Shown piece after piece: positions 3,628-59,781 of a stretch of 64,000 nucleotides of DNA. How positions within the stretch are numbered: the first letter of the stretch is position 1; every line of letters starts with the position of its first letter. The notes under the pieces are model-generated. The model saw only the letters and a program-made list of their open reading frames with translations. It searched no databases and was not told the DNA's origin. The position numbers and the translations under genes are program-made. This stretch comes from a virus, in the IMG/VR virus record IMGVR_UViG_3300017987_000001, positions 124,001 through 188,000 of that record; one strand, written 5' to 3'.

Positions 3628-5490
3628 CTAATACTTCGCCCCGGCCATCCCGTCGGGCTTAATCGGAGGCTTCCCGAACTCGGTCGTCTGCGCCAGCGAC
3701 GGAATGAACGATTCGCTGTGCTGCGCAGCTCCGAGGCCACGGTGCACCGATTGTAGCAGATTCTTTTTCAGATGGAAACCACCAAGTCGTACCATCCAAT
3801 CCTCGTTGTACCCCAGCGTCTCCATGGCGCGCACCATCTCCGGGGCGAACATCGGCTCGTCGGAGTGAGCCTTCACGGTCTTGAGTCCGCGCTTGTTGAT
3901 CTCAGCGGCAATGCGCGGCGTGATCTTCGTACCGATGGAGTACTGGAAGATCGGCTCCTCCAAGTACATGCCCACGGCACTCTTCGGTCGCATGGGCTTC
4001 GTACCCGTGCGCGGCTGATACTCGCGTGTGAGCGTGCTGAACTCTACCACATCATCGGGCAGCATGTCGGTGGTTCCGTCGGAGTCGACAATCCGTGCAT
4101 GGTTGATCAATCCGCGCGTCAGCAGCTCGATGTTCCGACGGTTCGCATCGATCTTGGTGGCCTTCAACGTGTTCCGGAAGTTGTTCATGAAGTGCCAGCG
4201 TCCGGCACCGATGCCCTTGTACTTCACAACCTCGGACGGGTTCGGCAAGCCTTCGCTCAATACGTCACCGGCCTCGATCTTGTCGCCGGGCACGACGGTC
4301 GGGTCGAACTCGGGCGCGACGTAGTGCTTCACGCCGCGCACGATAATGAAGTGACCGCCCTGCGGCGCTTTCTCGATGCCCTCGACAGTACCGTCGGTCT
4401 GCGCGATAGCCGCGCCGCCCATGAACGTACGTGGCACCTGAACGAGCTGGTTGATCGCATCGAAGCCGCCAGCGGTAGGACCAGCACCAACGACACCGCC
4501 GGTATGCTTCGAGGAGATAGCTGACTGCGTAATCGGCTCCGAGATAGCCTGTGCCGCTGCAACACCGACGTTGTCACCGATCTCGGGGAGCTTGCCCTTC
4601 TCGCGCACACCGACGCACCGGGCACACACACCATCGCGTGCCTGACACGTGAGCGGGCTGCGCACGATGATCTCTTTACCGTCACGCCCTATGCGCTTGG
4701 CTGCCTTCGTATCGATGATCGTATTCGCTTTGAAGCCCCCAGCGGGAGCTGCAAGGATCGAGCCAACGTTATCCGGGTCATCAGCGTCGACCGGGATGCC
4801 GTTGACCGTACCGCAATCATCCTCAGTGACGAGCAGCCGGTGAGATGCAAGCGCGAGCTGCTTGCCGAGAAAGCCGCCCTTCGGCGTGGCGAACTTGAGG
4901 TCGACCATGCCCTTTCGTGCCCCGTACGAGCCAGCCCAGTACTCGACTGGGTCCAGCCCCTCAGCGTACGAGTTGAGCAACGGGATCGGAACCGGGTTGC
5001 CTTTGTGGTCGGCCACGAGCAGGTCGCCGATGTTCGTCTGACTGAACTGAATCGGGTTGCCGCGTGCGCCGGAGTTGACCTGCATGGCGAGCGCGTTACG
5101 AAGGTCGAGCTGCTCTTGGAAGTTCAGTTTCCTAAGATCGTCGGCGCGCTTGCCGAGAAGTTTTATGACTCGCTCATTCTTTTGCTCATCGGTGAGCGGG
5201 GAGTTCAGAATCCTATTAACGCCACTACGTAGCTCGTCGCGAATCTTCTGTGCCTTCGGCCCTACAGTTAGAGAATCTAGGCTGATGGACGCCTCGCGGC
5301 CGTAGGTGGTAACCACCTCGGCCCCGAGGTCCATCATCTTCTTCGCGATCTCGTTGTACTGCTCCGGGTAGCGCTTCGCCACTTCGCGCAGGACCGTCTT
5401 GATCGTCTTCTTATTGATGGGACGATCGTAGTCCCGCATATCCGGCGGCAGGATGTCGTTGATCAGCAGTTGACCGACTGTAGTCTTCAC
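3628..5490 (-). CDS. DNA-directed RNA polymerase beta' subunit, C-terminal fragment
   Basis: 620 residues homologous to the C-terminal half of bacterial RpoC. Visible landmarks: the SGARG segment (about 140-144); GLDPVEYWAGSYGARKG (178-194), matching the region leading into the bridge helix; a complete second zinc site C226, C282, C289, C292; and AAAQAISEPITQ (311-322), the trigger-loop-adjacent motif. The catalytic NADFDGD is absent here because it lies at the end of the fusion protein at 11427-16925. The start is GTG at 5490, preceded by GGAGG seven bases upstream. It is embedded in structural-type genes, which favours a virion-packaged polymerase. Ends in TAG. The family assignment is very secure; the packaging idea is inference. 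Confidence 0.95.
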   Translation of the reverse strand: MKTTVGQLLINDILPPDMRDYDRPINKKTIKTVLREVAKRYPEQYNEIAKKMMDLGAEVVTTYGREASISLDSLTVGPKAQKIRDELRSGVNRILNSPLTDEQKNERVIKLLGKRADDLRKLNFQEQLDLRNALAMQVNSGARGNPIQFSQTNIGDLLVADHKGNPVPIPLLNSYAEGLDPVEYWAGSYGARKGMVDLKFATPKGGFLGKQLALASHRLLVTEDDCGTVNGIPVDADDPDNVGSILAAPAGGFKANTIIDTKAAKRIGRDGKEIIVRSPLTCQARDGVCARCVGVREKGKLPEIGDNVGVAAAQAISEPITQSAISSKHTGGVVGAGPTAGGFDAINQLVQVPRTFMGGAAIAQTDGTVEGIEKAPQGGHFIIVRGVKHYVAPEFDPTVVPGDKIEAGDVLSEGLPNPSEVVKYKGIGAGRWHFMNNFRNTLKATKIDANRRNIELLTRGLINHARIVDSDGTTDMLPDDVVEFSTLTREYQPRTGTKPMRPKSAVGMYLEEPIFQYSIGTKITPRIAAEINKRGLKTVKAHSDEPMFAPEMVRAMETLGYNEDWMVRLGGFHLKKNLLQSVHRGLGAAQHSESFIPSLAQTTEFGKPPIKPDGMAGAKY

Positions 5491-11426: not shown

Positions 11427-14400
11427 TCACTTCCCGAACTGCACGGAGTCGCCCACGCGCAGTTCACCCCTCTTGTAAGCGCGCAGGACGTCGGCCTTCG
11501 ACATGAAGGTCTTCACACGCTTGTCCTTGGCCGTCGATGCGAGGTACAGCCCGTGCAGGAACTCCTGCCTTGGGAAGTAGTGCACGTCGAAGTCGGATGC
11601 CGCGAGGAGGTTCCGACTCGGCATCATCTTGTCGACCGCTTCTTCCACCGCCGCCTTGCTCACCGGCACATGGAAATTCATAGCGTCACCGTCGAAGTCG
11701 GCGTTGAATCCCGGCGTCACGATGGGCGGAATCTGCAGCGTGTTGCCCTTGGTGATGATTGGCCACGCCGCCATCATGCCGTAACGGTGAAGCACCGGCG
11801 CGCGGTTGATGATGACCGGCCGACGACCAGTCTCTTCGAGCAGCGCCTTGTACGCCACCTGATCCTGATTCTCGATCGCCTTGGCCGCAGCCATCGCGCC
11901 CATGCCGCGCCGAACGAGGTTGCGCATCACGAACGGACGGTAAAGCACCCACGCCTTGCTCTCGGGGAGGCCGACCTGATCCATGCCAAGACTGGGGTTC
12001 GGCGTGATCACGCCTCGACCAACGGTGTCGACAGCCGCCCCGAGCACCTTCTGCTGATACATGCCCAGCTTCGGGCTCGATCCGAAGATGTGGCGCAGCA
12101 AACCGCCGACCTGCTTCTCCTGCGTCTTCGCAGCGACCGGATCACCGAGACCCGTGACCGCCTTGTATGCCTTGTAGAGCCGCAGGCGCTCGTCACCAAG
12201 CTCGTCGTCGCCGAGATCGTTGCGCAGCTCGCGCAGGTCGTCGTTGACGCTCATGAGATCCGCGTAGAGGTAGTTCGGATCATCCACGAACGTCGTCTTG
12301 TTGAAGGTGGTGATCGGGCGGAAGTTCGGAGGAAGCACCGGAACCTTCGTCAGCATGAGGTCGGACGGCTTCTGTCCCGCCTGCTTCAGCGTGCGCAGGT
12401 AGCCAAGTACCTTCACGGCGTTATCGCGCTTCGCGCCGGTCGCCTCGCGCACCTGCGAGGAGTAGTGCTCGATCGCGTCGTCGACTTTGATACGCTTGAG
12501 CGCGCTCAGGATCGCCTTCGACCCGCGCTCACCGTTCAAGTCGTCGCGTCCGGCAATGATCCGCTCCAGCTTGTTCTGCGTCAGCCCGAGCATGCGGCGA
12601 ATCGGCTCTTCCATCACAGGATTCGGGATAGGCTCAGCGAGGTCGATGTGAGACCAGCGCGTGCCACCATGGCCGCCGGTGAGGCCGACATCGAAGAGGC
12701 CGCCCTTCACCGGCTCCATGGCGTCTCCCGTGACCGTGTCGTTCTTCTTGATCGGTCCGGCGGACATCTTATCGATGTCCTTATCCGTCATGGCAAACAG
12801 ATGCAGCTGCTCGCCCTTCTTCTTGAGGTTGATCCCCGACGCCTGAAGCATGCTCAGGAACTTGTCGTAGATCATCGGAACCTTCGGGCTTGCAGGCGTG
12901 TACCCGAGTCGGAGCGCACGCCAGAAGTCGTCATTGCGCTGCCCGCGCACGAGCTTGGCGTCGCGGATGACATCGGTCGCACCGTGGCTGATGAGCGCCA
13001 TCATCTCGCCGACGCCGATACGCTTCGAGCCTTCTTGGCCGCCACCTGCGGGCATGCCCTCAGCCGTGTACGAGCCGATGTCGCGGCCGGAGAGCTTCGG
13101 CTCGGCCATGTGGTGAAGCTTCATCATGTACGTGTAGCCCGTGAAGACCTTCGGGATCTTCCGACCGCTCACCGGATCATGGATATCCTCGGTGTCGCTC
13201 ATCCCGTGCTTCTGCAGTTCCTTCTTCGCGAGCGTGACATAGCTCTCGTCCATGAAGCCCGGCAGCTTGTAGGGCACGCCGGTCTTCTTCGCGATCTTGC
13301 CCAACGCGGTCTCGATGAGCTGCGCCGGGTTGATACGGCTCACGATGCCGAGCGACGACAGCGTGATGTCGAACGGCTTGCCGTCCTTGTCGTGCGGCAT
13401 CTGATCGTCGGGGATGATCTTCGAGATGACGCCCTTGCCGCCGTAGCGATTGGAGAGCTTGTCGCCGACGTGCATTGGCGAGTACGCCTTCACGATGACC
13501 TTCCAGCCCTCCTTCGTCTTGTCGACATCCGTGACCACGCCTTCCGACTCGTGATCCCACGTCTCGGACGCGTCGCTGTAGAGCGTCTTGCGTGCGCGCA
13601 GCATTCCGCCGCCAGACGGCTTACGCTTGGAGATCGACAGCACCAGCGGATCACCGAACTTCACCTTCGTGCCGATCTTCACGACGCCATTGTCATCGAT
13701 CGTCGACATCTGCTGCTTGTCAAAGGTGCCCGGATAGATCGACATATACGACTTCTTGCCTGCCTCCTGATTGTCAGACTGCTGGTACTTCGTCGTGTAC
13801 ATGTGCTCGCTGGCGAGACGCTTCGCAGCTGACTCACTGAGTACGAGCGCGTCATCGGCGTTGTACCCACGATATGGCAGGTATGCGACCTTCAGGTTCA
13901 TTCCGGAGGCCACTGCCCCTGTGTCGTCGGTGAAGTTGCTTCGAGCGAGCAGCTGACCGGGAGCGACAGGATCTCCAACTCGTACGACAGGAGTGTTGTG
14001 GAGGTAGGTCTTCCGGTTGAAGGGGAAGTTGTTATAGAGATCGTAAGAGACCTTCTCTCCGTCGGCATAGCGCACGACGACCTTATCCTTAGTGATCTCA
14101 GCAACCGACCCCATACCCTCTGCACGAACCGCACCAGCCCGATCACCATAGATCTCCTCGAAGCTGCGTCCCGAACCATCATCGGCGAGGTTCTGAACGA
14201 GCGGAGCCTCGGCATTGCGAAGCGGCAGCGCCTGCGTCGCCATCTTCGCGCCCATGAGCAGACGGCCACCCTTGATCGCACTGACCATGGGGACCATGTT
14301 CGCCGTCGCCGTGAACATGTGGCTCGTGTGCGGCAGCTCGAAGTCGACATCCTTACGCTTCACGTACGCGAGCTTCTTGCCACGGATCATCGCTCGCACT

Positions 14401-16925
14401 TCTTTGCCCTTGCGCGCAAGCTCGCCGGGGAATGCGATGATGCTCTTGGCCATCTTGCTGGCGCTGATGCGGCGCGGCTTGCCGGTCTTCGCGTCGAGCA
14501 TGTCAACGTAGATGTTCCCGTCCGAACCCTTGTACGTCCGGTGCGTGATGCGGCTGTCAACACCAATCTTCATGCCTTCGGGCGCACGAATGGGGTCGAT
14601 CACGCCGAAGTGCGACGGCTGCACGGCACGCGCTTCGTCGGGAACAGCGTCGAGACCGGGCATTCCGCCCTCACCCATGCGGGTGACGCGCACGAGCTGG
14701 TCGAAGATCTCAAGCGGGTTCACCTCTTCGAGCGGAGCTGCGAGACCGCTCTTGAGCAGCACAAGTCGAAGCTGCGGCGAGAGCGCGCCCGCCGGGAACT
14801 TCGAGACGTTGCCCTTGTTGGTAGCACGCCACAGCAGCTTACGGGACATGCCGCCAGCGTCACGGGCGATACGCTCGGCGAAGAGATCCTCGGGGCCGAA
14901 CACGCGCTGAAATGCGAGCGAGTCGCGATCGTCCGTATCCGCCTTGCGCTGGTTGATGTCGATGAGCTTCTTCGTGACTTCGGCGATCACTTCGGGCGAC
15001 AGCTTGTCGATCTTGCGGCCAAGCGTCATCTCGGTCGTGTCGGGGTCAACTTCCATCTTCTCGAAGACACCACGCATCTGAAGACCCATGTCATCATCCG
15101 CGCGCTTCTCCATCGCTGCGTCACGCCCCACGAACTGCACGAACGCGCGCTTGATCTCGTCGACCGGCAGCATGGCCTTCAGCTCTTCGAGCGTGGTGAA
15201 GCGGCGCGGAAGCGTCTTCTCCTTCTTCACGGCTTTGAGCTGCTTCTCGACCTTCGCCTGATCGGCCGCCGGGTTGCCCTTGATGTCCTGATTGGCCTGC
15301 TGCTGACGCTCGATCAGCTGCATCGGCTCTTCGTTCTCCATCATCTCTTCGGCGGGCATCGACATGTCGACAACATCGGCGAGCTTCGTCGCCATCGCGC
15401 TCTTGACGAGCGTGTCGGAGATCGCTTCCTCAATCGCGTTCGTCACGGCAAGGAACGCGTTGGCCGTCTTCTCCTCGACGCCGTCGAACAGCGCTGCGAT
15501 CTTCGAAGCGCCACGCGGCTGCTTCTTGGGCTTCACGGCGACGGTGATGTGGAACTGGAACTCCTTGCCGCTGTCATCGCCGCGCGGAAGCTCCTCGAAT
15601 CCGAGCGACTTGCGATGAGCACGCAGCTCGGGCGACTTCGCTTCGAGGAACCATACGCGATCCATCTCATCCCAGCCCTCGGGGTCGAGATCGACGATGG
15701 CGTTCTGCAAACTGAAGGGGAACTTGCGGCCATTACCGCATGCGGTCTTCCACTTCTTGCCGTACTTCCCGATCAGCTGCTTCGCTTCCCAGTTGCGCAG
15801 AACGCTGATGTGCGGGAGATCGAAGCGCGACTCGCAGTCGACGTCCTGATCCTTCAGCGCCTGATACGCAGCCTCGGGCAGTCCCTTGTGGATCTTGAGG
15901 TACGCCCACGGCTTGTCCGAATCCGAATCGTCGCATACCAGCTCGCCGACGAACTTCGCGCGGCGGCGGTTACCTTCCTCGTCCTCCTGCGCAGCCTTGG
16001 CGAACTTGAACTCGCTGCCCACCCAGAGCATGCACCAGCCGGTCGGCGCGACGAAGCCCTGCACCCGGCGGCACGCGTTGACGCCGTTGAAGTTCTTGCA
16101 GCTGGAGCACTGCTGGAAGAATCCCGACATCGTGTAGTTCACGTCGCCCTTGGAGGTCTTGCCGTAGCCGACGTGCTCCTCGGAGTAGCCAAAGAACGCT
16201 GCCTTCTCGGTAGCGTCGGTGTCCTGCTGCTCGGGAGGGGTCTCCTCGGGCTTCTTCGAAACAAGCTTGTGATACGCGCGCTGAACGGCACGCGGGTCGG
16301 ACGCAGCAACGTTCGCCTGCAGCAGGTCCGGTCCCCACGTCTCGTTGAGCTTGCGGTCGTCGTAACCCATCGAGCGAAGGATCGGATAGAGCTTGAGGTT
16401 CGCCTGCCCGACGTTCATGCGGAAGACGCCGGTCTCCGGCTCCATGTAGACCCTGAAGCTGCGCCCCGTGCCACCCTTGACGTTAAAGTGGGCCTCGATG
16501 ATGCCGTTGTCCTTAACTCGACTGTAGATGCCGGGGCGCAGCCTCATTTGGGACGCTACGGTATACTCGTTGCCGTTGAAGACGAACGTACCACGATCGG
16601 TGAGATACGGAACCTGAGCGATGAGCCGTTGGTTAGTCTTGTCGACAATCTTGCCGGATGCGTTATCGACAAGTTCCCACCGACCAGCGAGCTTCCATCC
16701 GAGCGTCTGGCCGCGCATGATCGCCCGCTTCTGCTCGGAGTTGGTGTACTGCTTCGGCTTCACGTACTTCACGTCGTTCAGCCGCAGCGTGTAGCGCTGG
16801 TTCGTCATCGGGAAGCGCTCTTCGATCGCCTTCTGCACGTTCGTGAACAGAAGCTGGCGCGTCGAGCGCACGTCGTCGAACTCACGCATCGTAGGTTCGT
16901 TGGGAGCAGCGATTACGTCGGCCAT
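11427..16925 (-). CDS. RNA polymerase beta subunit fused to the N-terminal half of beta', with inserted HiPIP-like and 2H-like domains
   Basis: 1832 residues. Beta occupies about 1-1365: VPYLTDRGTFVFNGNEYTVA (N-terminal beta); VQPSHFGVIDPIRAPEGMKIG (fork/Rif region); YLPYRGYNADDALVLSESA; and GDKLSNRYGGKGVISKI (about 1155-1170), all standard beta landmarks. Beta' begins near 1370 with GLFD and THWSHIDLAEP-like sequence and includes VPVLPPNFRPI, INRAPVLHRYG and the catalytic NADFDGD at 1741-1747 (D1743, D1745, D1747). The protein ends about 85 residues later, and the remainder of beta' is encoded at 3628-5490. Between the beta N-terminus and fork region are a four-cysteine motif (C273, C276, C285, C298) and two H-x-S/T motifs (H372-I-S, H459-I-T). 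A natural beta-beta' fusion occurs in some bacteria; here it is combined with a split beta'. Start and stop overlap neighbours. Confidence 0.95.
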   Translation of the reverse strand: MADVIAAPNEPTMREFDDVRSTRQLLFTNVQKAIEERFPMTNQRYTLRLNDVKYVKPKQYTNSEQKRAIMRGQTLGWKLAGRWELVDNASGKIVDKTNQRLIAQVPYLTDRGTFVFNGNEYTVASQMRLRPGIYSRVKDNGIIEAHFNVKGGTGRSFRVYMEPETGVFRMNVGQANLKLYPILRSMGYDDRKLNETWGPDLLQANVAASDPRAVQRAYHKLVSKKPEETPPEQQDTDATEKAAFFGYSEEHVGYGKTSKGDVNYTMSGFFQQCSSCKNFNGVNACRRVQGFVAPTGWCMLWVGSEFKFAKAAQEDEEGNRRRAKFVGELVCDDSDSDKPWAYLKIHKGLPEAAYQALKDQDVDCESRFDLPHISVLRNWEAKQLIGKYGKKWKTACGNGRKFPFSLQNAIVDLDPEGWDEMDRVWFLEAKSPELRAHRKSLGFEELPRGDDSGKEFQFHITVAVKPKKQPRGASKIAALFDGVEEKTANAFLAVTNAIEEAISDTLVKSAMATKLADVVDMSMPAEEMMENEEPMQLIERQQQANQDIKGNPAADQAKVEKQLKAVKKEKTLPRRFTTLEELKAMLPVDEIKRAFVQFVGRDAAMEKRADDDMGLQMRGVFEKMEVDPDTTEMTLGRKIDKLSPEVIAEVTKKLIDINQRKADTDDRDSLAFQRVFGPEDLFAERIARDAGGMSRKLLWRATNKGNVSKFPAGALSPQLRLVLLKSGLAAPLEEVNPLEIFDQLVRVTRMGEGGMPGLDAVPDEARAVQPSHFGVIDPIRAPEGMKIGVDSRITHRTYKGSDGNIYVDMLDAKTGKPRRISASKMAKSIIAFPGELARKGKEVRAMIRGKKLAYVKRKDVDFELPHTSHMFTATANMVPMVSAIKGGRLLMGAKMATQALPLRNAEAPLVQNLADDGSGRSFEEIYGDRAGAVRAEGMGSVAEITKDKVVVRYADGEKVSYDLYNNFPFNRKTYLHNTPVVRVGDPVAPGQLLARSNFTDDTGAVASGMNLKVAYLPYRGYNADDALVLSESAAKRLASEHMYTTKYQQSDNQEAGKKSYMSIYPGTFDKQQMSTIDDNGVVKIGTKVKFGDPLVLSISKRKPSGGGMLRARKTLYSDASETWDHESEGVVTDVDKTKEGWKVIVKAYSPMHVGDKLSNRYGGKGVISKIIPDDQMPHDKDGKPFDITLSSLGIVSRINPAQLIETALGKIAKKTGVPYKLPGFMDESYVTLAKKELQKHGMSDTEDIHDPVSGRKIPKVFTGYTYMMKLHHMAEPKLSGRDIGSYTAEGMPAGGGQEGSKRIGVGEMMALISHGATDVIRDAKLVRGQRNDDFWRALRLGYTPASPKVPMIYDKFLSMLQASGINLKKKGEQLHLFAMTDKDIDKMSAGPIKKNDTVTGDAMEPVKGGLFDVGLTGGHGGTRWSHIDLAEPIPNPVMEEPIRRMLGLTQNKLERIIAGRDDLNGERGSKAILSALKRIKVDDAIEHYSSQVREATGAKRDNAVKVLGYLRTLKQAGQKPSDLMLTKVPVLPPNFRPITTFNKTTFVDDPNYLYADLMSVNDDLRELRNDLGDDELGDERLRLYKAYKAVTGLGDPVAAKTQEKQVGGLLRHIFGSSPKLGMYQQKVLGAAVDTVGRGVITPNPSLGMDQVGLPESKAWVLYRPFVMRNLVRRGMGAMAAAKAIENQDQVAYKALLEETGRRPVIINRAPVLHRYGMMAAWPIITKGNTLQIPPIVTPGFNADFDGDAMNFHVPVSKAAVEEAVDKMMPSRNLLAASDFDVHYFPRQEFLHGLYLASTAKDKRVKTFMSKADVLRAYKRGELRVGDSVQFGK

Positions 16926-33902: not shown

Positions 33903-36677
33903 TCAGCCAGTCTGTGCGCCGGTCATCTGTTGTAGTGCTTGGAACCCTCCCTCAAGCTTCGCCTGATCCCTTGTCTCGTCCATCTTCTGGATAACGAGCG
34001 CGTGAAGCGTCTGATCGGACTTCTTGAGGTCCGTGAGCTGCGACTTGCGGATCTCGTACGGCATACCAAGCATCTGCATCGCAATCTGCTCAGCCTGCGA
34101 TTGCATATCGTCGGGTGTCGTTCCACCCGCCGGAGAGGGCTGTCCAGCAGGAGCAGCGCCTGCGGGAGCGCCACCAGCAGGAGCGGGCTGACCGGGCATC
34201 TGCGGCTGGTCTGCGGCAGCGAAGATCTGCTCGAACTCCTGCTGCTTCGCCTGATCCTCCTGAAACTTCTTGCTCTCGTCGGCGAACTGCTTCTCTTCCT
34301 CGAACATCCGCCGTATTTCCTCGCGCCAGTCGATTCCATACGGTGCGAAGGCAGTCTGCTTCGAGATCTGCTGCGAGGCGGCGAGCTGAAGCTGGATCTG
34401 CTTCTTCTCGATGTCCTCGGCGAGCGTCGTCGGCTGGAGGCGTCCGCTGATCTTCTCCCAGTTCATCAGGTCGGTAATCGCCTCGAAGAACCAGTTGACC
34501 CACCCGTTCATGGCGGAGACGAAATGCGTCCACGTGCGCTCAAACAGACGCAGCGCCATCGGAGCTGCCTGCACCTGCAGCGTGCCACGGTACATCTCAG
34601 CCGGAACGCCCATAGCATTGAGGAACTCGTCCATGCCTGCATTGATGAGGTCAACGGGAGCGAGATCCTGCCCCTCGCCACCAAGAGCGCGGTAGTCGAT
34701 GGGGAACGGGAGTGCATTCCACTGAGTCGGATCCTTGCGATGCTTGCGAATCATGCCCATCACGCGGCCCATGAACGAACCAGCATTGACGTGATACAGC
34801 GGGTCGACCTCGCCAGTGCCCGAGCCCTTGCCCGGCGTGATGATGCGGAATGGAATGATGTAGTCGAGACCGATGGCCTCGTTGTAGCGCTTGAGCACCT
34901 GCACGTACCACGCCTGCTTGAAGTTGGCGAGGATGCGCGGAATGCCCCATCCGGCATTACGCAAACCGGCGACGCACTCCTCTTTGAAGTGGTAGATGAT
35001 GCCCTTGTTGAACTGGAACCACTTGTCGGTGCGCAAGCACTCGACTATTTCCCACGGCGTCGACTCAAGGTAGAACGGGTTGCCCTTGCGGACCTCTCGC
35101 TTGATGTCCGAAGGCGGGATCCAATAGTACGCAGTCTCGTGAGAAATTGGGTGGTGCTGGAGACGGACCTCGTGGGGCGACCATCGAATGATTCGTGGCT
35201 TATCCTCTTCCACGGAACGGCGATCGACACGTTCGAATACTCCCGTCCACCCACACTGTGGACACGTCGCGTTGAACTGCCAGTTCTCAAAGGAGTATTC
35301 CATCCGACCGAGCGTGCGTTCGTGGAAACACTTACGACAGCGAAGATATCGGCGGAATGGAATGTGTACGGAAGTGAATGAATTACCGTAGCACTGCTTC
35401 GTCAGAATGCCGTTATCGATAACGAACGTATGCGTCTCCATCTCGACACAGCAGAATACCTCGTCAACAATACCTGTTCCGCGTACTTCCTTGACTCCGA
35501 TATACTGACCATAGTTCGTGGGCTTGTAGTTCTCCTCGAACTTGGCTCTATGCGCTGGGATCAGGAAGTCTTGCGGCAACATCGACTGCTTAAGCAACGT
35601 GACGTAATAAATGTCACTGTCGTATACGTCGACGTGTCCGTCATCACGAACAAACTCCGCCGTACGCCGCTGACTTCGGACAGGACCAGCGGACATACCG
35701 ATACGAGGAAGCTGTCGAACAATTGCCTCCAACGTAGCGGAGGATGCCTGCGTCAGCATCGCACAACCGTGCGTGTCCACAGTACCATCAGCAGACAGGA
35801 AGCCGCATACGAAGCCGTACCAATACTCCGCACTCATGTCATTCGACGGGAGCGCCTTGTAGTGCGGCGGCAGACCAAACATCTCGACTTTTCCAGAGTC
35901 CGGCGTGTAGTCGTCTACATCCCAGTACGCCAGCATGACCGCGTCCTTCTCCCCGAAGAACGTAGCCTTTGCCTGCTTGCCCTTGTTGTACAGTGAGCCG
36001 TCACCAAACGTGAAGCCGTGGCGAACGCCTTCCTTGAAGTCATCACCCCGCTCGGGGCGAGGAGCTACGACTCTGGGGATCCTGTATCCCTTCCGCAGTT
36101 CAGCTGTAGAAACTTCAACCTCTTTGTCAGAGCAGTTCTTGGCGATCCACCGATGCTCGGGCGTAGCCAGCACGGTGCGGCCGTCGCTAAACTCAACTTC
36201 GAGAAGTTCTTGATGACCAAAGGACTTGAACTCTGCGGGGCGATACACGCCATCTTTCGATAGCACGTCAACAGTCTTACCCACAAGCTCGCGAAGCTTG
36301 AAGACGCCACCGCGCGTGACCGCTTCAGTGTCGCCGTGGAAACACATGTAATCGTCGCCAATAGTAGCGAGCACGTCGAGGATCTTGATCTGCTTATTTA
36401 GGAAGTCTTCGTACTTCTCCTTCTCGTCATCCGATGCATCCTGCAGTTCGATCTTCGTCAGGAAGTAGCGAACGACACGCTGCGCAGCCATGCGAAACGT
36501 GCCGTTGGTTACCCACAGATACTCACACCAGCGCATGACGTCGTAGAGCGAGCGCGGCATCTGTGTGGATGCGTAGTCAAAGAACGGGTCGGGGAATGCT
36601 TGAGAATACCGGTTCGCCGTACTGTTGGCTGAACCGACACCGGTCGTTGGGAACATCGGGAAGACAGCTTCGGCCAT
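33903..36677 (-). CDS. Phage portal protein, interrupted by an intein
   Basis: 924 codons; the mature protein after splicing would be 607 residues. The N-terminal block (about 25-110) and the segment after the intein (YGNSFTSVHIPF and onward) read as a portal: PYGIDWREEIRRMFEEEK, AEDIEKKQIQLQLAASQQI, MDEFLNAMGVPAEMYRGTLQ. Portal proteins form the dodecameric ring at the capsid vertex through which DNA passes. C447-x2-C450 and C472-x2-C475 form a zinc-ribbon-like insertion just after the intein. The C-terminus is Ala/Pro/Gly-rich and then helical. AGAGG precedes the ATG. The portal call rests on motif-level resemblance. Confidence 0.8.
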   Translation of the reverse strand: MAEAVFPMFPTTGVGSANSTANRYSQAFPDPFFDYASTQMPRSLYDVMRWCEYLWVTNGTFRMAAQRVVRYFLTKIELQDASDDEKEKYEDFLNKQIKILDVLATIGDDYMCFHGDTEAVTRGGVFKLRELVGKTVDVLSKDGVYRPAEFKSFGHQELLEVEFSDGRTVLATPEHRWIAKNCSDKEVEVSTAELRKGYRIPRVVAPRPERGDDFKEGVRHGFTFGDGSLYNKGKQAKATFFGEKDAVMLAYWDVDDYTPDSGKVEMFGLPPHYKALPSNDMSAEYWYGFVCGFLSADGTVDTHGCAMLTQASSATLEAIVRQLPRIGMSAGPVRSQRRTAEFVRDDGHVDVYDSDIYYVTLLKQSMLPQDFLIPAHRAKFEENYKPTNYGQYIGVKEVRGTGIVDEVFCCVEMETHTFVIDNGILTKQCYGNSFTSVHIPFRRYLRCRKCFHERTLGRMEYSFENWQFNATCPQCGWTGVFERVDRRSVEEDKPRIIRWSPHEVRLQHHPISHETAYYWIPPSDIKREVRKGNPFYLESTPWEIVECLRTDKWFQFNKGIIYHFKEECVAGLRNAGWGIPRILANFKQAWYVQVLKRYNEAIGLDYIIPFRIITPGKGSGTGEVDPLYHVNAGSFMGRVMGMIRKHRKDPTQWNALPFPIDYRALGGEGQDLAPVDLINAGMDEFLNAMGVPAEMYRGTLQVQAAPMALRLFERTWTHFVSAMNGWVNWFFEAITDLMNWEKISGRLQPTTLAEDIEKKQIQLQLAASQQISKQTAFAPYGIDWREEIRRMFEEEKQFADESKKFQEDQAKQQEFEQIFAAADQPQMPGQPAPAGGAPAGAAPAGQPSPAGGTTPDDMQSQAEQIAMQMLGMPYEIRKSQLTDLKKSDQTLHALVIQKMDETRDQAKLEGGFQALQQMTGAQTG
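35394..36344 (-). mobile_element. Intein with LAGLIDADG-type homing endonuclease, in the portal gene
   Basis: Residues 112-428 (317 aa). It begins C112-F-H-G-D-T (block A); LATPEHRW gives the block B T-x-x-H. Two LAGLIDADG-like helices, GFTFGDGSLYN and YGFVCGFLSADGT, mark a DOD endonuclease. Block F/G is VEMETHTFVIDNGILTKQ followed by C429 as the +1 residue. The usual penultimate His is Lys and the last residue is Gln instead of Asn, both known natural variants. The extein junction DDYM/CYGNSF reads smoothly across when the intein is removed. Confidence 0.9.
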
Positions 36678-37649: not shown

Positions 37650-37662
37650 GCTGATAGCTAAA
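37648..37662. repeat. 15-mer AAGCTGATAGCTAAA, copy 1
   Basis: Identical to 40106-40120. Both copies lie between a terminator hairpin and the next leftward gene. In this copy it abuts the -35 box, so an upstream activator or operator site is possible. Confidence 0.5.
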
Positions 37663-37678
37663 GAAAGGGCGAACCCAT

Positions 37679-40105: not shown

Positions 40106-40120
40106 AAGCTGATAGCTAAA
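40106..40120. repeat. 15-mer AAGCTGATAGCTAAA, copy 2
   Basis: Identical to 37648-37662. Here it overlaps the T-run of the terminator of the 40179 gene. A weak -35/-10 pair may lie downstream on the minus strand, but I do not call a promoter. Confidence 0.5.
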
Positions 40121-40130
40121 AAGGAACACT

Positions 40131-45597: not shown

Positions 45598-45924
45598 TTA
45601 GCCCGTTTTGGGCTTGGGAATGAAGGGTACGAAGTGCCCCGAATCGTTGACCGTCGTGGCGTCAATTCCGACCTGCACAACCTCGCCATCCACCTCGAAT
45701 GACCCCACCGGAGCAAGGTTGCCCAGCCGCACGCGGTGGCCACGGAACGCGAAGGCATGCAGCTCCTCCGTAGCCTCCAGTACGTTGGACTTCAACGCCC
45801 GCTCGAAGGCCGAACGGTCACCGCACTCAAGGCACTGCGGCGGCTTGTCGGCTGCGTCAGGAATGATGATCAGCCAGAACGGTATCGGCTTCGTCTCCGC
45901 CTTCTTATCTGGTTCGTCGCTCAT
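45598..45924 (-). CDS. Hypothetical 108-residue protein
   Basis: Starts MSDEPDKKAETKPIPFWLII. Beta-rich C-terminal half (RVRLGNLAPVGSFEVDGEVV). One C-x2-C pair (PPQCLECG) of possible metal-binding type. Overlaps the upstream gene by four bases (ATGA). Not recognised. Confidence 0.65.
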   Translation of the reverse strand: MSDEPDKKAETKPIPFWLIIIPDAADKPPQCLECGDRSAFERALKSNVLEATEELHAFAFRGHRVRLGNLAPVGSFEVDGEVVQVGIDATTVNDSGHFVPFIPKPKTG

Positions 45925-46184: not shown

Positions 46185-46806
46185 TGAGTTCTCCCATCTC
46201 TATCAGTCGTGCGCGCCCGCGAGCGACGATAGTCGGCTCCGGCGGCTGCACGGTCAGCGTAATCATCTCTGGTGCCGTCGTTGGATGCGGCAATCGCTTC
46301 AGGAATTCTTCACGTTCGAGATCTTCAGCCTCTCCCGGCTTGAAGATCGGATACGGCAGCATCTCCCGGTGTGTCTCTGCGACGAGCCGGGCAGACATGG
46401 TTGAGATGGTCCACACATCGATAACCTCGGGCCGAGGGTTCTCGACACCGACCATCCGCATAAACGGATCGCCGATCGGTGCCGCCATACGGCGCGGCAC
46501 ACAGAAGCCGCCATGCTTCGGGTGAACCATCTCAACCGACTCCAGCCAGCTACAGAATGCCGGATATGCCTGATCGTTCATGACATACAGACGAGACCCG
46601 AACGGCTGCGGCAGGTTGATGATCTCGAATCCCTGAAAGTCGTAGTACGTCAGCGTCACGTCCATCTTCGTGTCATTGACGAAGCGGCCAACGACGTCGA
46701 ACGTGATGCCGCCGTAGGTGTAGAGGGCCGCGTGCGTGAACGGCACGAAGCCCTCCTTCCGAGCCTCCAGCAACGAGCCGAGCAGTTCGAGCTTGTCTGT
46801 ACTCAC
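46156..46806 (-). CDS. Hypothetical 216-residue protein
   Basis: GTG start at 46806 sharing its G with the upstream TAG (TAGTG). The sequence is soluble, mixed alpha/beta, with several Pro-rich turns (VHPKHGGFCVPRRMAAPIGD). No recognised motif. Transcribed with the glutaredoxin-like gene immediately upstream. Confidence 0.62.
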   Translation of the reverse strand: MSTDKLELLGSLLEARKEGFVPFTHAALYTYGGITFDVVGRFVNDTKMDVTLTYYDFQGFEIINLPQPFGSRLYVMNDQAYPAFCSWLESVEMVHPKHGGFCVPRRMAAPIGDPFMRMVGVENPRPEVIDVWTISTMSARLVAETHREMLPYPIFKPGEAEDLEREEFLKRLPHPTTAPEMITLTVQPPEPTIVARGRARLIEMGELNESGDQAAQ

Positions 46807-49135: not shown

Positions 49136-49210
49136 TGGAACGTCCGGCGGGGGTCGAACCCGCATCTTGCGCCTTTAGAGAGCGCCGCACTCCCATTGTG
49201 CTACGGACGT
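49136..49210 (-). tRNA. tRNA with anticodon CUA (amber suppressor), CCA encoded
   Basis: Folds as a canonical cloverleaf: 7-bp acceptor ACGTCCG/CGGACGT, D-stem GCAC/GTGC, anticodon stem GCGCT/GGCGC, loop CTCTAAA with U33 and anticodon CTA, 5-base variable loop AAGAT, T-stem GCGGG/CCCGC with loop TTCGACC, discriminator T73, then CCA at 49138-49136. Decodes UAG. The short variable loop excludes class II identities. U73 and the A1-U72 pair do not point clearly to one synthetase, so the amino acid is unknown. Lies between two small genes. Confidence 0.9.
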
Positions 49211-55715: not shown

Positions 55716-56450
55716 CTAACGACGGGTGTTCACTTTCGACCCCGCCGGTTTTTCACTCAGCCCGCGTCGCTTGGCTTTGTTCACTGCCACCCCGTAGTTG
55801 AAGGCCGTGAACGGCAGCCCCTGCTGACGGACCGCCTCTCCGAGGAGCGTGTCGCCACCATTGTGACTCAGCCGCACGTCGGGCCAGTCGATCTGCTTCA
55901 TGACATCCGTGCGGAGCCACCAGTAGGCTCCCTGTGCGAATGTGATTCCGGGGGACTTGATACCGGGCGTTCGGGTCGCACACATCTCCGTGGGCTTCCC
56001 TTTGAACCACGTCGCCTGCTTGATGAAGTCCCACTGCCCCGGAAGGTGGTGCACGTACCACGACTGCCCAACATACGAGCAGTTCGGGACGCGCGCGATA
56101 TGTCCTGTTGTCTTCTGCCACCAATCGCTCTTGTCGATATACGAGTCGTCATCGAACCAGAGGATCCATGGGGTTTGCGGCTTCCACGTCTCCATCTCGT
56201 GGAACATCAGCCGCATGGCCTTGTACTTCGGCTTGTTCTCTTCGCTGAAGAGGTACTCGAAGTCCGCGCTGCCGTGCTTCTCCTTGAAGCCCATCACAAG
56301 CTTCTGCGACGGCTTGCCAATGGTATTGCACCACAGCCTGATCACCGCCTGATCGAGCGGCGTGTAAGCGAACAGCGAGCGAAGGAGGCGCGTGTGCAGG
56401 GCAAGATCGTTGCCGTACAGGAGCGCGTAAATTGTCACGAACTCATTCAT
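55716..56450 (-). CDS. Glycosyltransferase-like protein outside the glycan island
   Basis: 244 residues. PWILWFDDDSYIDKSDWWQK has a DDD metal-binding motif followed by GQSWYVHHLPGQW, and the N-terminal YALLYGNDLALHTRLLRSL fits a GT-A Rossmann domain. Full catalytic core visible. It is separated from the other glycosyltransferases by 22 kb, so it may act on a different target, for example nucleic acid or a host factor. Confidence 0.72.
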   Translation of the reverse strand: MNEFVTIYALLYGNDLALHTRLLRSLFAYTPLDQAVIRLWCNTIGKPSQKLVMGFKEKHGSADFEYLFSEENKPKYKAMRLMFHEMETWKPQTPWILWFDDDSYIDKSDWWQKTTGHIARVPNCSYVGQSWYVHHLPGQWDFIKQATWFKGKPTEMCATRTPGIKSPGITFAQGAYWWLRTDVMKQIDWPDVRLSHNGGDTLLGEAVRQQGLPFTAFNYGVAVNKAKRRGLSEKPAGSKVNTRR

Positions 56451-56974
56451 TGGCGTCTCAGATCCTTAGACATCATCCTACTGAAGAGCCGCTGCTTCAC
56501 GTCGAAGATCGCATTCTTGATGCTGTCGATCTTGCGATAGCCCTTCTTCGTGACCGCATCCAGCTCTTCGATGGCTTTGGATATCACTCCCGTGAAGTGC
56601 GATGCCGTCTCGACTACCTGAGGACCGTTCGCTACCTGCTTGAGCGCAACAGCGAGATGGTCCACGAGCGCGGCATTGAACTCCGCAGGCGGCAGCGACT
56701 CGATGCCGGATATCATATCCCAATACTTGAGCGGAATGCGCATATCATGCTGATCATCGTCGTCCGGGTCAACGCGCTTGCGCACGTCACCGTGCCGGAA
56801 GGCAACAGCAACTTCGTTGACGACGATGACCTCGAAGTCACAGCCGGGATACGCAATCACGACGCTAGGCAGTGAGTTCTTCCCGCCCTTCACGACCACT
56901 GACGAGAAATTACTCCGTCGAGATTTCTTCAAAAGTCTGGGATCCAAGCCAGACCACGACTTACGTTTGGCCAT
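56447..56974 (-). CDS. Hypothetical 175-residue protein
   Basis: Starts MAKRKSWSGLDPRLLKKSRR. Basic N-terminus, then alpha/beta, helical C-terminus. No family recognised. First gene leftward of the plus-strand small RNA unit. Confidence 0.65.
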   Translation of the reverse strand: MAKRKSWSGLDPRLLKKSRRSNFSSVVVKGGKNSLPSVVIAYPGCDFEVIVVNEVAVAFRHGDVRKRVDPDDDDQHDMRIPLKYWDMISGIESLPPAEFNAALVDHLAVALKQVANGPQVVETASHFTGVISKAIEELDAVTKKGYRKIDSIKNAIFDVKQRLFSRMMSKDLRRQ

Positions 56975-56989
56975 TTCACCCCCTCATCG

Positions 56990-57017
56990 TTGACTTACAT
57001 CACCCAAGGTGTATCAT
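56990..57017 (+). promoter_or_regulatory. Plus-strand sigma70-like promoter for a small RNA
   Basis: TTGACT (56990-56995) and TATCAT (57012-57017), 16 bases apart, on the strand opposite to every gene in the window. Predicted start near 57024, with a strong terminator 100-130 bases downstream in the same direction. The 197-bp gap 56975-57171 contains this unit and palindrome site 6. Confidence 0.65.
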
Positions 57018-57023
57018 TGCTCT

Positions 57024-57156
57024 GCTTGGCGGAGAGTTCGGGAGGCAGATCACAACTTCAACCCCCCAGCAAGTGATTTCCGATACAGACAGTGGGGCAC
57101 TGCTCTGTCCACCAAGCAACAACGGCGACCCAGCCCGGGTCGCCGTTGCTTTTTTG
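57024..57156 (+). ncRNA. Candidate small RNA, about 130 nt, plus strand
   Basis: Bounded by the promoter at 56990-57017 and the terminator at 57121-57155; no open reading frame with a ribosome site. It can fold: TGCTTGGCGG at 57023-57032 pairs with CCACCAAGCA at 57109-57118 (one C-A mismatch), CAGTG/CACTG with a 3-base loop at 57090-57102, then the terminator stem. It does not match a tRNA and has no match to a family that I know. It is the only plus-strand transcription unit I can support. Target or role unknown. Confidence 0.6.
57121..57155 (+). terminator. Rho-independent terminator of the plus-strand small RNA
   Basis: Perfect 11-bp stem (57121-57131 with 57137-57147), 5-base loop, then GCTTTTTT. 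Clearly oriented for plus-strand transcription. The T-run overlaps palindrome site 6. Confidence 0.85.
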
Positions 57157-57171: not shown

Positions 57172-57495
57172 CTACTTGGAGTCGGATGCAGAGCTGGACT
57201 CCTCCTCGTCAGGCTTCGCCTCACCGGTCGCACGCTTCTTCAGCCCGTCTTCGAGCGCGGTGCCGCCGATGAACATCGCCGACACAGTAGCGACAACCAT
57301 GCCGAAGATCTCCGCCATGTTGTTGACGATCTCGGGATCCTCTCCCTCCGGGAGCCGCCCCAACAACATGAAGTAGCTCGCCACGACCGCCAGTATGGCG
57401 AAGACGCCCTTCCGACTCGCGAAGATGTTACCGAGAGACTTGAGTCCTCCGTACTTCGCAAGCTGCTCCACGGCTTTCGCGACATGGTTCTTCAT
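57172..57495 (-). CDS. Small two-span membrane protein, holin-like
   Basis: 107 residues. Hydrophobic segments at about 32-48 (VFAILAVVASYFMLLG) and 61-80 (EIFGMVVATVSAMFIGG), with a charged, Ser-rich C-terminus. Size and layout fit class II holins, but holins are not identifiable by motif, so this is only a candidate. Ends in TAG beside palindrome site 6. Confidence 0.6.
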   Translation of the reverse strand: MKNHVAKAVEQLAKYGGLKSLGNIFASRKGVFAILAVVASYFMLLGRLPEGEDPEIVNNMAEIFGMVVATVSAMFIGGTALEDGLKKRATGEAKPDEEESSSASDSK

Positions 57496-58727: not shown

Positions 58728-59206
58728 TTCTGTCTCAGCCCAGCGGCAAATGCGTCGAACGGCAAAACCGTGAGCCGCGAGCCATCGTGGCCGTTCCGAA
58801 TGATCGCGTTGACGCCCGGGATGACCGAGACGTCGGCATCGTGGATGATCCAGTTGCTCTTGGCGACCAGCGGGAAGACCACTCCTACTTTCAGTCCTTC
58901 TTCGTGCGTCGCGCGGGCTTCGATGAACGCCTGCGCGATCGGATGCTTCATGAAGGATTTCAGCAACAGGTCTCCGATGACCTGCCCCTTCAGTTTGGTA
59001 ACGGTGACATATACGGGTGGGTTGTACGCGTCGTTGAACCACTCGAACCCGAACTCATCACCGGCCTCGTGCGCCAGCTCTCGGGCATCCTCATCATCCA
59101 ACAGGATGGAGAGGAGCCGGTTGAGCATGCGAATGTCATAACGCTGCTCCGATTGCTGCCGCTTGTCGGCTTCGAACTGGTCGAAGCCGGGAAAGAGATT
59201 GTTCAT
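58715..59206 (-). CDS. Hypothetical 163-residue protein
   Basis: Starts MNNLFPGFDQFEADKRQQSE. ATG overlaps the upstream TGA (ATGA). Alpha/beta with a helical N-terminus and a beta-rich middle (YNPPVYVTVTKLKGQVIG). No catalytic motif. Part of the early/replication operon. Confidence 0.62.
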   Translation of the reverse strand: MNNLFPGFDQFEADKRQQSEQRYDIRMLNRLLSILLDDEDARELAHEAGDEFGFEWFNDAYNPPVYVTVTKLKGQVIGDLLLKSFMKHPIAQAFIEARATHEEGLKVGVVFPLVAKSNWIIHDADVSVIPGVNAIIRNGHDGSRLTVLPFDAFAAGLRQKWQP

Positions 59207-59781
59207 ACCGTTCCCTCATCACACAGCGAGTCGGTGAGCTTCCTGATATAGTTGCGCACGCGACGGAGCCACTCGCAGTCACGGAAGTTGACGAAGAACA
59301 TGAAGACGGGGATGTTGAGCACCTGCGCCAGACCACGCACGTACGTACCATTTGGCGCTGTGTCGTTGCGCTCCCAGTACGAGATAGTGGTCTGTGCGAC
59401 TGGGATACCCTTGTCAGTCATGAGCTTCGCGAGGCGCCACTGTGGGACGCTCCGCTCTTCTCTGAACCTCCGTAGATTCTCTCCGAAGTGGTAGTCGTAG
59501 TGCGTGGGTGGTTGGGGGAGCGCGGGCAGATCTAAGATCTGCCCGGGCGGGACAGCTATGTACGCTTCATCCGATAGCTCATTGTTCTCGGTATCGAACT
59601 TCAGGTCTTCGAAGTGGTGCCAGTAGAGCTTGCGACGCCCATTCCACTGTACGGCGACCTTGTTGAAGTTCGACACACGAGTCGTTTGCTTGCGTACCGC
59701 GATACCCTTACGATCCTTCTTCGCGACCAACAGCTTACCGTTGGCCGCATACAGATCCGTACGCGCCCACACAACCCCCAT
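59203..59781 (-). CDS. XRE-type helix-turn-helix regulator 2
   Basis: 192 residues. HFGENLRRFREERSVPQWRL through TISYWERNDTAPNGTYVRGLAQVLNIPV (about 97-160) is a Cro/CI-type HTH: R-x-x-R, helix 2, recognition helix near TTISYWER, and the C-terminal closing helix. Preceded by a domain of unknown type (residues 1-90). GAGGAGG nine bases before the ATG. Probable transcription factor for the replication module. Confidence 0.85.
   Translation of the reverse strand: MGVVWARTDLYAANGKLLVAKKDRKGIAVRKQTTRVSNFNKVAVQWNGRRKLYWHHFEDLKFDTENNELSDEAYIAVPPGQILDLPALPQPPTHYDYHFGENLRRFREERSVPQWRLAKLMTDKGIPVAQTTISYWERNDTAPNGTYVRGLAQVLNIPVFMFFVNFRDCEWLRRVRNYIRKLTDSLCDEGTV

Follow-up and report, generated by a model that had tools for sequence, protein, structure and literature searches.

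A 197-bp gap between two minus-strand genes of a tailed phage carries a plus-strand segment that is well supported by its sequence as an independent, non-coding transcription unit, and we consider it quite probable that this unit is real and that its transcript is made. In our leading reading, to which we assign a probability of about 0.45, the unit would be transcribed by host sigma70 polymerase into a cis-antisense regulator of ~131 nt in the style of OOP and sar. If transcribed, it would represent a compact antisense regulator in the poorly known large phages that encode their own polymerase, and it would bear on whether such phages still use the host RNA polymerase for selected units.

The window is the 64,000-nt stretch at positions 124001-188000 of a 207,857-bp IMG/VR virus record, and coordinates refer to it unless the contig is named. 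The virus is a tailed phage, as judged by matches to tail sheath, baseplate and tail-fibre proteins, with a GC content of 59.7%. A codon-model gene call places 221 of the 230 predicted genes of the 208-kb contig on the minus strand. The earlier note placed the unit opposite to all genes; the few plus-strand calls within the window are short and low-scoring. Of the tRNA matches found, 36 lie elsewhere in the contig and a single one within the window. A tRNA with the anticodon CTA (amber) was observed at 49136-49210 on the minus strand, and TAG is the commonest stop in this phage with an amber tRNA (91/230 predicted genes). In addition, a 924-aa protein encoded at 33903-36677 on the minus strand is possibly an intein-containing portal protein: residues 152-425 are similar, at a score under the Pfam cut-off, to an intein splicing domain, residues 110-430 resemble a Thermobifida phage ribonucleotide reductase record, and residues 431-801 match a protein of phage Arash annotated as portal.

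The gap is flanked by the following two genes.

56447..56974, minus strand: 175-aa orphan gene without a family, downstream of the gap on the minus strand; suggested antisense target
57172..57495, minus strand: 107-aa gene, whose product combines two hydrophobic segments with a charged tail and, on these features, appears holin-like

Neither a minus-strand promoter nor a minus-strand terminator was found in the gap, and the 175-aa gene is therefore probably transcribed as part of a longer message. On the plus strand, the gap contains the following elements.

56990..57017, plus strand: sigma70-type promoter TTGACT-16-TATCAT, 10/12 consensus matches
56999..57014, no strand: palindrome ATCACC-CAA-GGTGTAT in the promoter spacer, a single copy in the window, its count not above chance
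57024..57155, plus strand: predicted non-coding RNA of ~131 nt, from G57024, the inferred start, to the end of the T-run
57024..57117, plus strand: body of the predicted RNA, in which GCUUGG/CCAAGC form the closing stem and the inner stems are weaker
57120..57155, plus strand: intrinsic terminator with a perfect 12-bp GC-rich stem, a 5-nt loop and CTTTTTT

The rightward promoter described in the earlier note is thus present as claimed. Only two plus-strand matches of at least 10/12 occur in the contig; the second is inside a gene, which leaves the match at 56990-57017 as the sole intergenic one in 208 kb. The terminator stem, ~100 bp past the promoter, is formed by CAACGGCGACCC/GGGTCGCCGTTG at 57120-57131/57137-57148 around the loop AGCCC, and T6 follows at 57150-57155. 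The perfect stem and six Ts reported previously were therefore recovered, while the stem has 12 bp instead of the 11 bp given. It is the sole strong plus-strand terminator in 207,857 bp that has no minus-strand T-tailed counterpart: the other strong intergenic one, at 46440, is two-sided, and three weaker plus-strand matches are all inside genes. Moreover, the inferred start G57024 lies 7 nt after the -10 hexamer and coincides with the first base of the closing stem GCTTGG, whose partner CCAAGC sits just before the terminator. Accordingly placed signals predict transcript ends at ~57024 and ~57155. The spacer palindrome at 56999-57014 might, speculatively, serve as an operator, perhaps for the HTH protein at 59203-59781.

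At the thresholds used, the combination of promoter and terminator is unique among the 59 intergenic gaps on either strand. It was absent from 400 shuffles of all 59 gaps, a figure that overstates the significance because shuffling also destroys the hairpins frequent in the gaps of this phage, so that the true chance level lies above the shuffle estimate.

Between promoter and terminator, codon scores are negative in all three plus-strand frames and there is no ATG. The earlier claim that no protein is encoded is borne out by this lack of any plus-strand frame with coding-like codon use; the RNA is non-coding, as are phage cis-antisense RNAs of the OOP/sar type. A translated small product, considered as a candidate, was ruled out by the codon scores. 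The complementary end segments noted before were also found, 57023-57036 pairing with 57105-57118 at 86% complementarity. Including the terminator, the plus-strand RNA has two near-equal predicted folds, a multibranch structure at -58.1 kcal/mol and a three-way junction at -57.8 kcal/mol. The whole RNA reaches z = -4.3 to -4.6, mostly from the terminator, whereas the body at 57024-57117 alone reaches z = -1.6, which is not significant. Taken by itself, the body folds no better than chance on the plus strand, which weakens the reading of the earlier note.

The opposite strand of the same segment has a predicted structure of its own.

57024..57149, minus strand: mirror fold with a 13-bp hairpin and a well-defined three-way junction

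This fold gives rise to a rival reading, which we regard as rather unlikely, that places the functional structure on the minus strand: the gap would serve the 175-aa gene as a 5' leader or intercistronic element, and the promoter and T-run on the plus strand would be secondary or due to coincidence. Compared with the plus strand, the minus strand has a predicted fold more stable by 9 kcal/mol (-67.8 vs -59.0 kcal/mol; z -5.9 vs -4.3 with the hairpin), its body alone has z = -3.0 (3/500 shuffles) vs -1.6, and its MFE structure equals the centroid, giving a single well-defined structure. Several of its pairs are G-U on the minus strand only and become A-C mismatches on the plus strand. Furthermore, such a leader would lie along the direction of gene transcription, and other intergenic gaps of the phage also carry strong minus-strand folds. 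However, when the whole gap is scored, the strands are alike (z -3.3 plus, -2.9 minus), no riboswitch or leader family of Rfam matched the minus strand, and the reading leaves unexplained both the clean T6 after a stem and the correctly placed 10/12 plus-strand promoter. Mirror-image folds are frequent in antisense systems. Collectively, the predicted folds favour neither strand decisively, and both structures could be real. If the minus-strand reading were true, the gap would hold a structured leader, possibly of an unclassified type. Among the other gaps, a 313-nt intergenic stretch beyond the window, on the minus strand (L007:1771-2083; contig 81771-82083), has long and very strong predicted hairpins, with an MFE of -147.6 kcal/mol and z = -9.5 for one piece of 113 nt, and may also form a 10-bp pseudoknot, TGCGTGGATG/CATCCACGCA; none of its Rfam matches reaches the gathering score, and it is possibly a new structured RNA.

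The remaining rivals concern what a plus-strand RNA would do, or whether there is one. Action in trans on phage or host mRNAs, for example through pairing of the C6 stretch with G-rich Shine-Dalgarno sequences, is unlikely: CAACCCCCCAGC is complementary to G-rich ribosome-binding sites and 11-nt perfect matches occur at two phage translation starts, but among 300 shuffled RNAs, 53 have matches of at least 11 nt and 48 give as many starts with 9-nt matches, and in the predicted fold most of the C-run is paired. The target prediction put forward in the earlier note therefore yielded complementarity to phage translation starts no better than that of shuffled RNA. A chance or decayed arrangement, in which a GC-rich hairpin, a T-run and a promoter-like match have come together with no effective transcription, seems very unlikely to us. 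It draws on the strong intergenic hairpins common in this phage, on the weakness of single consensus matches as evidence and on the lack of any conservation found; yet the signals occur together nowhere else in the contig and in none of the shuffles, and the inferred start falls precisely on the first base of the closing stem. That the RNA is a packaging RNA or a 6S-like polymerase mimic appears extremely improbable. Its ends are paired, one near-optimal fold is a three-way junction, and its C6 and G4 runs are mutually complementary in sequence; against this, the predicted folds have the C-run paired and not free in a loop, the large-internal-loop fold typical of 6S RNA is not predicted, and no Rfam family matched at E up to 10 apart from weak terminator-driven matches, neither the covariance model of 6S RNA (RF00013) nor a family of phi29-type packaging RNA. 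Collectively, the roles suggested at the outset (mimic of a host RNA, packaging and regulation in trans) gained no positive support, as Rfam, pattern scans and phage targets all gave null results.

The search for relatives bears on the cis-antisense reading as well as on its rivals. An Rfam search, as proposed in the earlier note, returned at gathering and permissive thresholds (E < 10) only weak matches, driven by the terminator hairpin and far below gathering scores. Nucleotide similarity searches of phage and plasmid records gave only short chance matches, and exact patterns from pieces of the RNA were found neither in IMG/VR nor in 84,980 bacterial and archaeal GTDB genomes. Similarly, a covariance model built from the single sequence, which can find close relatives only, recovered among 37 virus records the window itself and none of the 36 others. 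A scan with the polymerase subunit located 44 related loci, the nearest (G005, 200,903 bp) at 51% identity. G005 shares the neighbourhood of a UvsX-like recombinase and holds the one weak match to a 284-aa neighbour of the unit; its corresponding gaps contain no comparable opposite-strand unit. Searches with the 107-aa and 175-aa proteins found no relatives, those of the 17 related phages included. The element and its flanking genes are thus missing from the relatives searched, in collections from which records very close to the window may be absent, and there is therefore no alignment and no stem covariation to read. The unit seems to lie in a lineage-specific block, and its absence from such distant relatives speaks neither for nor against function.

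The following genes bear on which polymerase would transcribe the unit.

11427-16925, minus strand: RNA polymerase gene whose 1832-aa product unites the beta domains and the front portion of beta-prime in one protein
3628-5490, minus strand: RNA polymerase gene encoding a separate 620-aa protein, another part of beta-prime

The phage therefore encodes a multisubunit RNA polymerase; the 620-aa protein is ~30% identical to those of Salmonella phage Arash and Vibrio phage D181, of which the phage group is a distant relative. The phages phiKZ and AR9, which have their own multisubunit polymerase, are transcribed independently of the host polymerase (PMC7598289), and the presence of a phage polymerase here weakens the host-sigma70 reading for this reason. 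TTGAC-16/18-TANNNT sites number 4 in 16.4 kb of intergenic DNA vs 8 in 191 kb of coding DNA, a density to be read with the caveat that intergenic DNA may be richer in A and T. In G005, they are also denser in intergenic DNA, on the gene strand; sigma70-like promoters are therefore plausible in this phage group. By contrast, TTAGCTAT shows strong enrichment in the intergenic DNA of 5 of the 6 genomes compared, where it lies on the gene strand and usually follows a T-run immediately. The motif TTTTTAGCTAT, usually at the end of a T-run, was observed at 40112-40122 and 37654-37664 on the minus strand of the window and at contig position 45599; it also occurs in the relatives G005, G007, G012 and G020 and is strongly enriched in the gene-strand intergenic DNA of five divergent related phages. 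In jumbo phages with their own polymerase, early operons are preceded by a conserved AT-rich motif (PMC7598289), and the TTAGCTAT/TTTTTAGCTAT motif may be a signal of the phage polymerase (a promoter) or a feature of terminators. The counter-strand unit lacks the TTAGCTAT motif, and transcription by the host enzyme consequently fits, though it is unproven.

According to the cis-antisense reading, the host-sigma70-type promoter would drive a stand-alone non-coding RNA of ~131 nt that ends at the intrinsic terminator. Because of its position, the RNA would be the perfect complement of whatever minus-strand message runs across 57155-57024, and a message reading from the holin-like gene into the 175-aa gene would hold its full complement. 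Pairing with this intercistronic message would probably start at hairpin loops, and the duplex would refold the leader or be cut by RNase III. As a result, expression of the 175-aa gene would be lowered or, less likely, protected, and this effect would come early, as long as the polymerase of the host is active. We infer transcription, the polymerase used, its timing and the effect of pairing as the steps of this reading. The promoter-like and terminator sequences, the non-coding content, the perfect complementarity and the layout are seen directly in the DNA. In favour of a cis-antisense role, both signals lie on the same strand in one gap, the start fits the closing stem, and the complementarity in cis is complete by construction. 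Several observations count against it, namely the non-significant fold of the plus-strand body, the better minus-strand fold, the homologues not found, and the position of the 5' end of the RNA. This end lies 49 nt upstream of the start codon of the 175-aa gene, leaving its ribosome-binding site uncovered, while the T-run stops 16 nt short of the end of the 107-aa gene. Because the RNA misses the ribosome-binding site, it would not block that site directly but would refold the leader, expose the duplex to RNase III or interfere with transcription. The 175-aa gene is not prominent in a ranking of targets by duplex energy (ranks 107 and 31 among 230 when counting starts at 0), a prediction dominated by long-loop artefacts. 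Neither the intercistronic antisense position nor the better minus-strand fold had figured in the earlier note. In an extended version of the cis-antisense reading, which we consider unlikely, the counter-strand RNA made by the host polymerase would time the neighbouring, possibly lysis-related gene pair, and the switch from host to phage polymerase would lift the antisense brake.

The antisense RNAs OOP, sar and aQ are known from phages (PMC12197685; PMC5415839). Like the predicted RNA of the unit, the sar RNA of P22, antisense to ant, is a small phage RNA from the strand opposite to its target. The complement of sar lies between two genes that belong to a single array, and the complement of the unit is likewise intercistronic within one array. 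In contrast to sar, the unit covers a region at least 49 nt upstream of the start codon and not the ribosome-binding site, its target gene is unrelated, and it is known from sequence. OOP overlaps the cII coding sequence, whereas the unit overlaps non-coding sequence only and belongs to a different type of phage. RNAIII of pIP501 has a size of roughly 130 nt. As for the likeness to OOP of lambda, antisense to cII, both are, in the case of the unit by prediction, short counter-strand RNAs with their own promoter that end at a terminator, and an RNase III route has been proposed for OOP, as it is here for the unit (PMC12197685). pIP501 RNAIII and other leader-directed countertranscripts resemble the predicted RNA of the unit as structured RNAs complementary to the leader of a message, and leader refolding or attenuation of the RNAIII type is a plausible mode for the unit (PMC5415839), although no minus-strand attenuator terminator was found after its pairing region. 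Finally, the virulent phage PAK_P3 has short counter-strand transcripts, mostly early; 20 putative antisense RNAs were described, 8 of them small (mean 176 bp), and all but one lie within genes, whereas the unit is intergenic and known from its sequence alone (PMC4933390). Collectively, small antisense RNAs are already established in phages, and the unit, if it functions at all, would most likely join them, as the arrangement of its sequence suggests.
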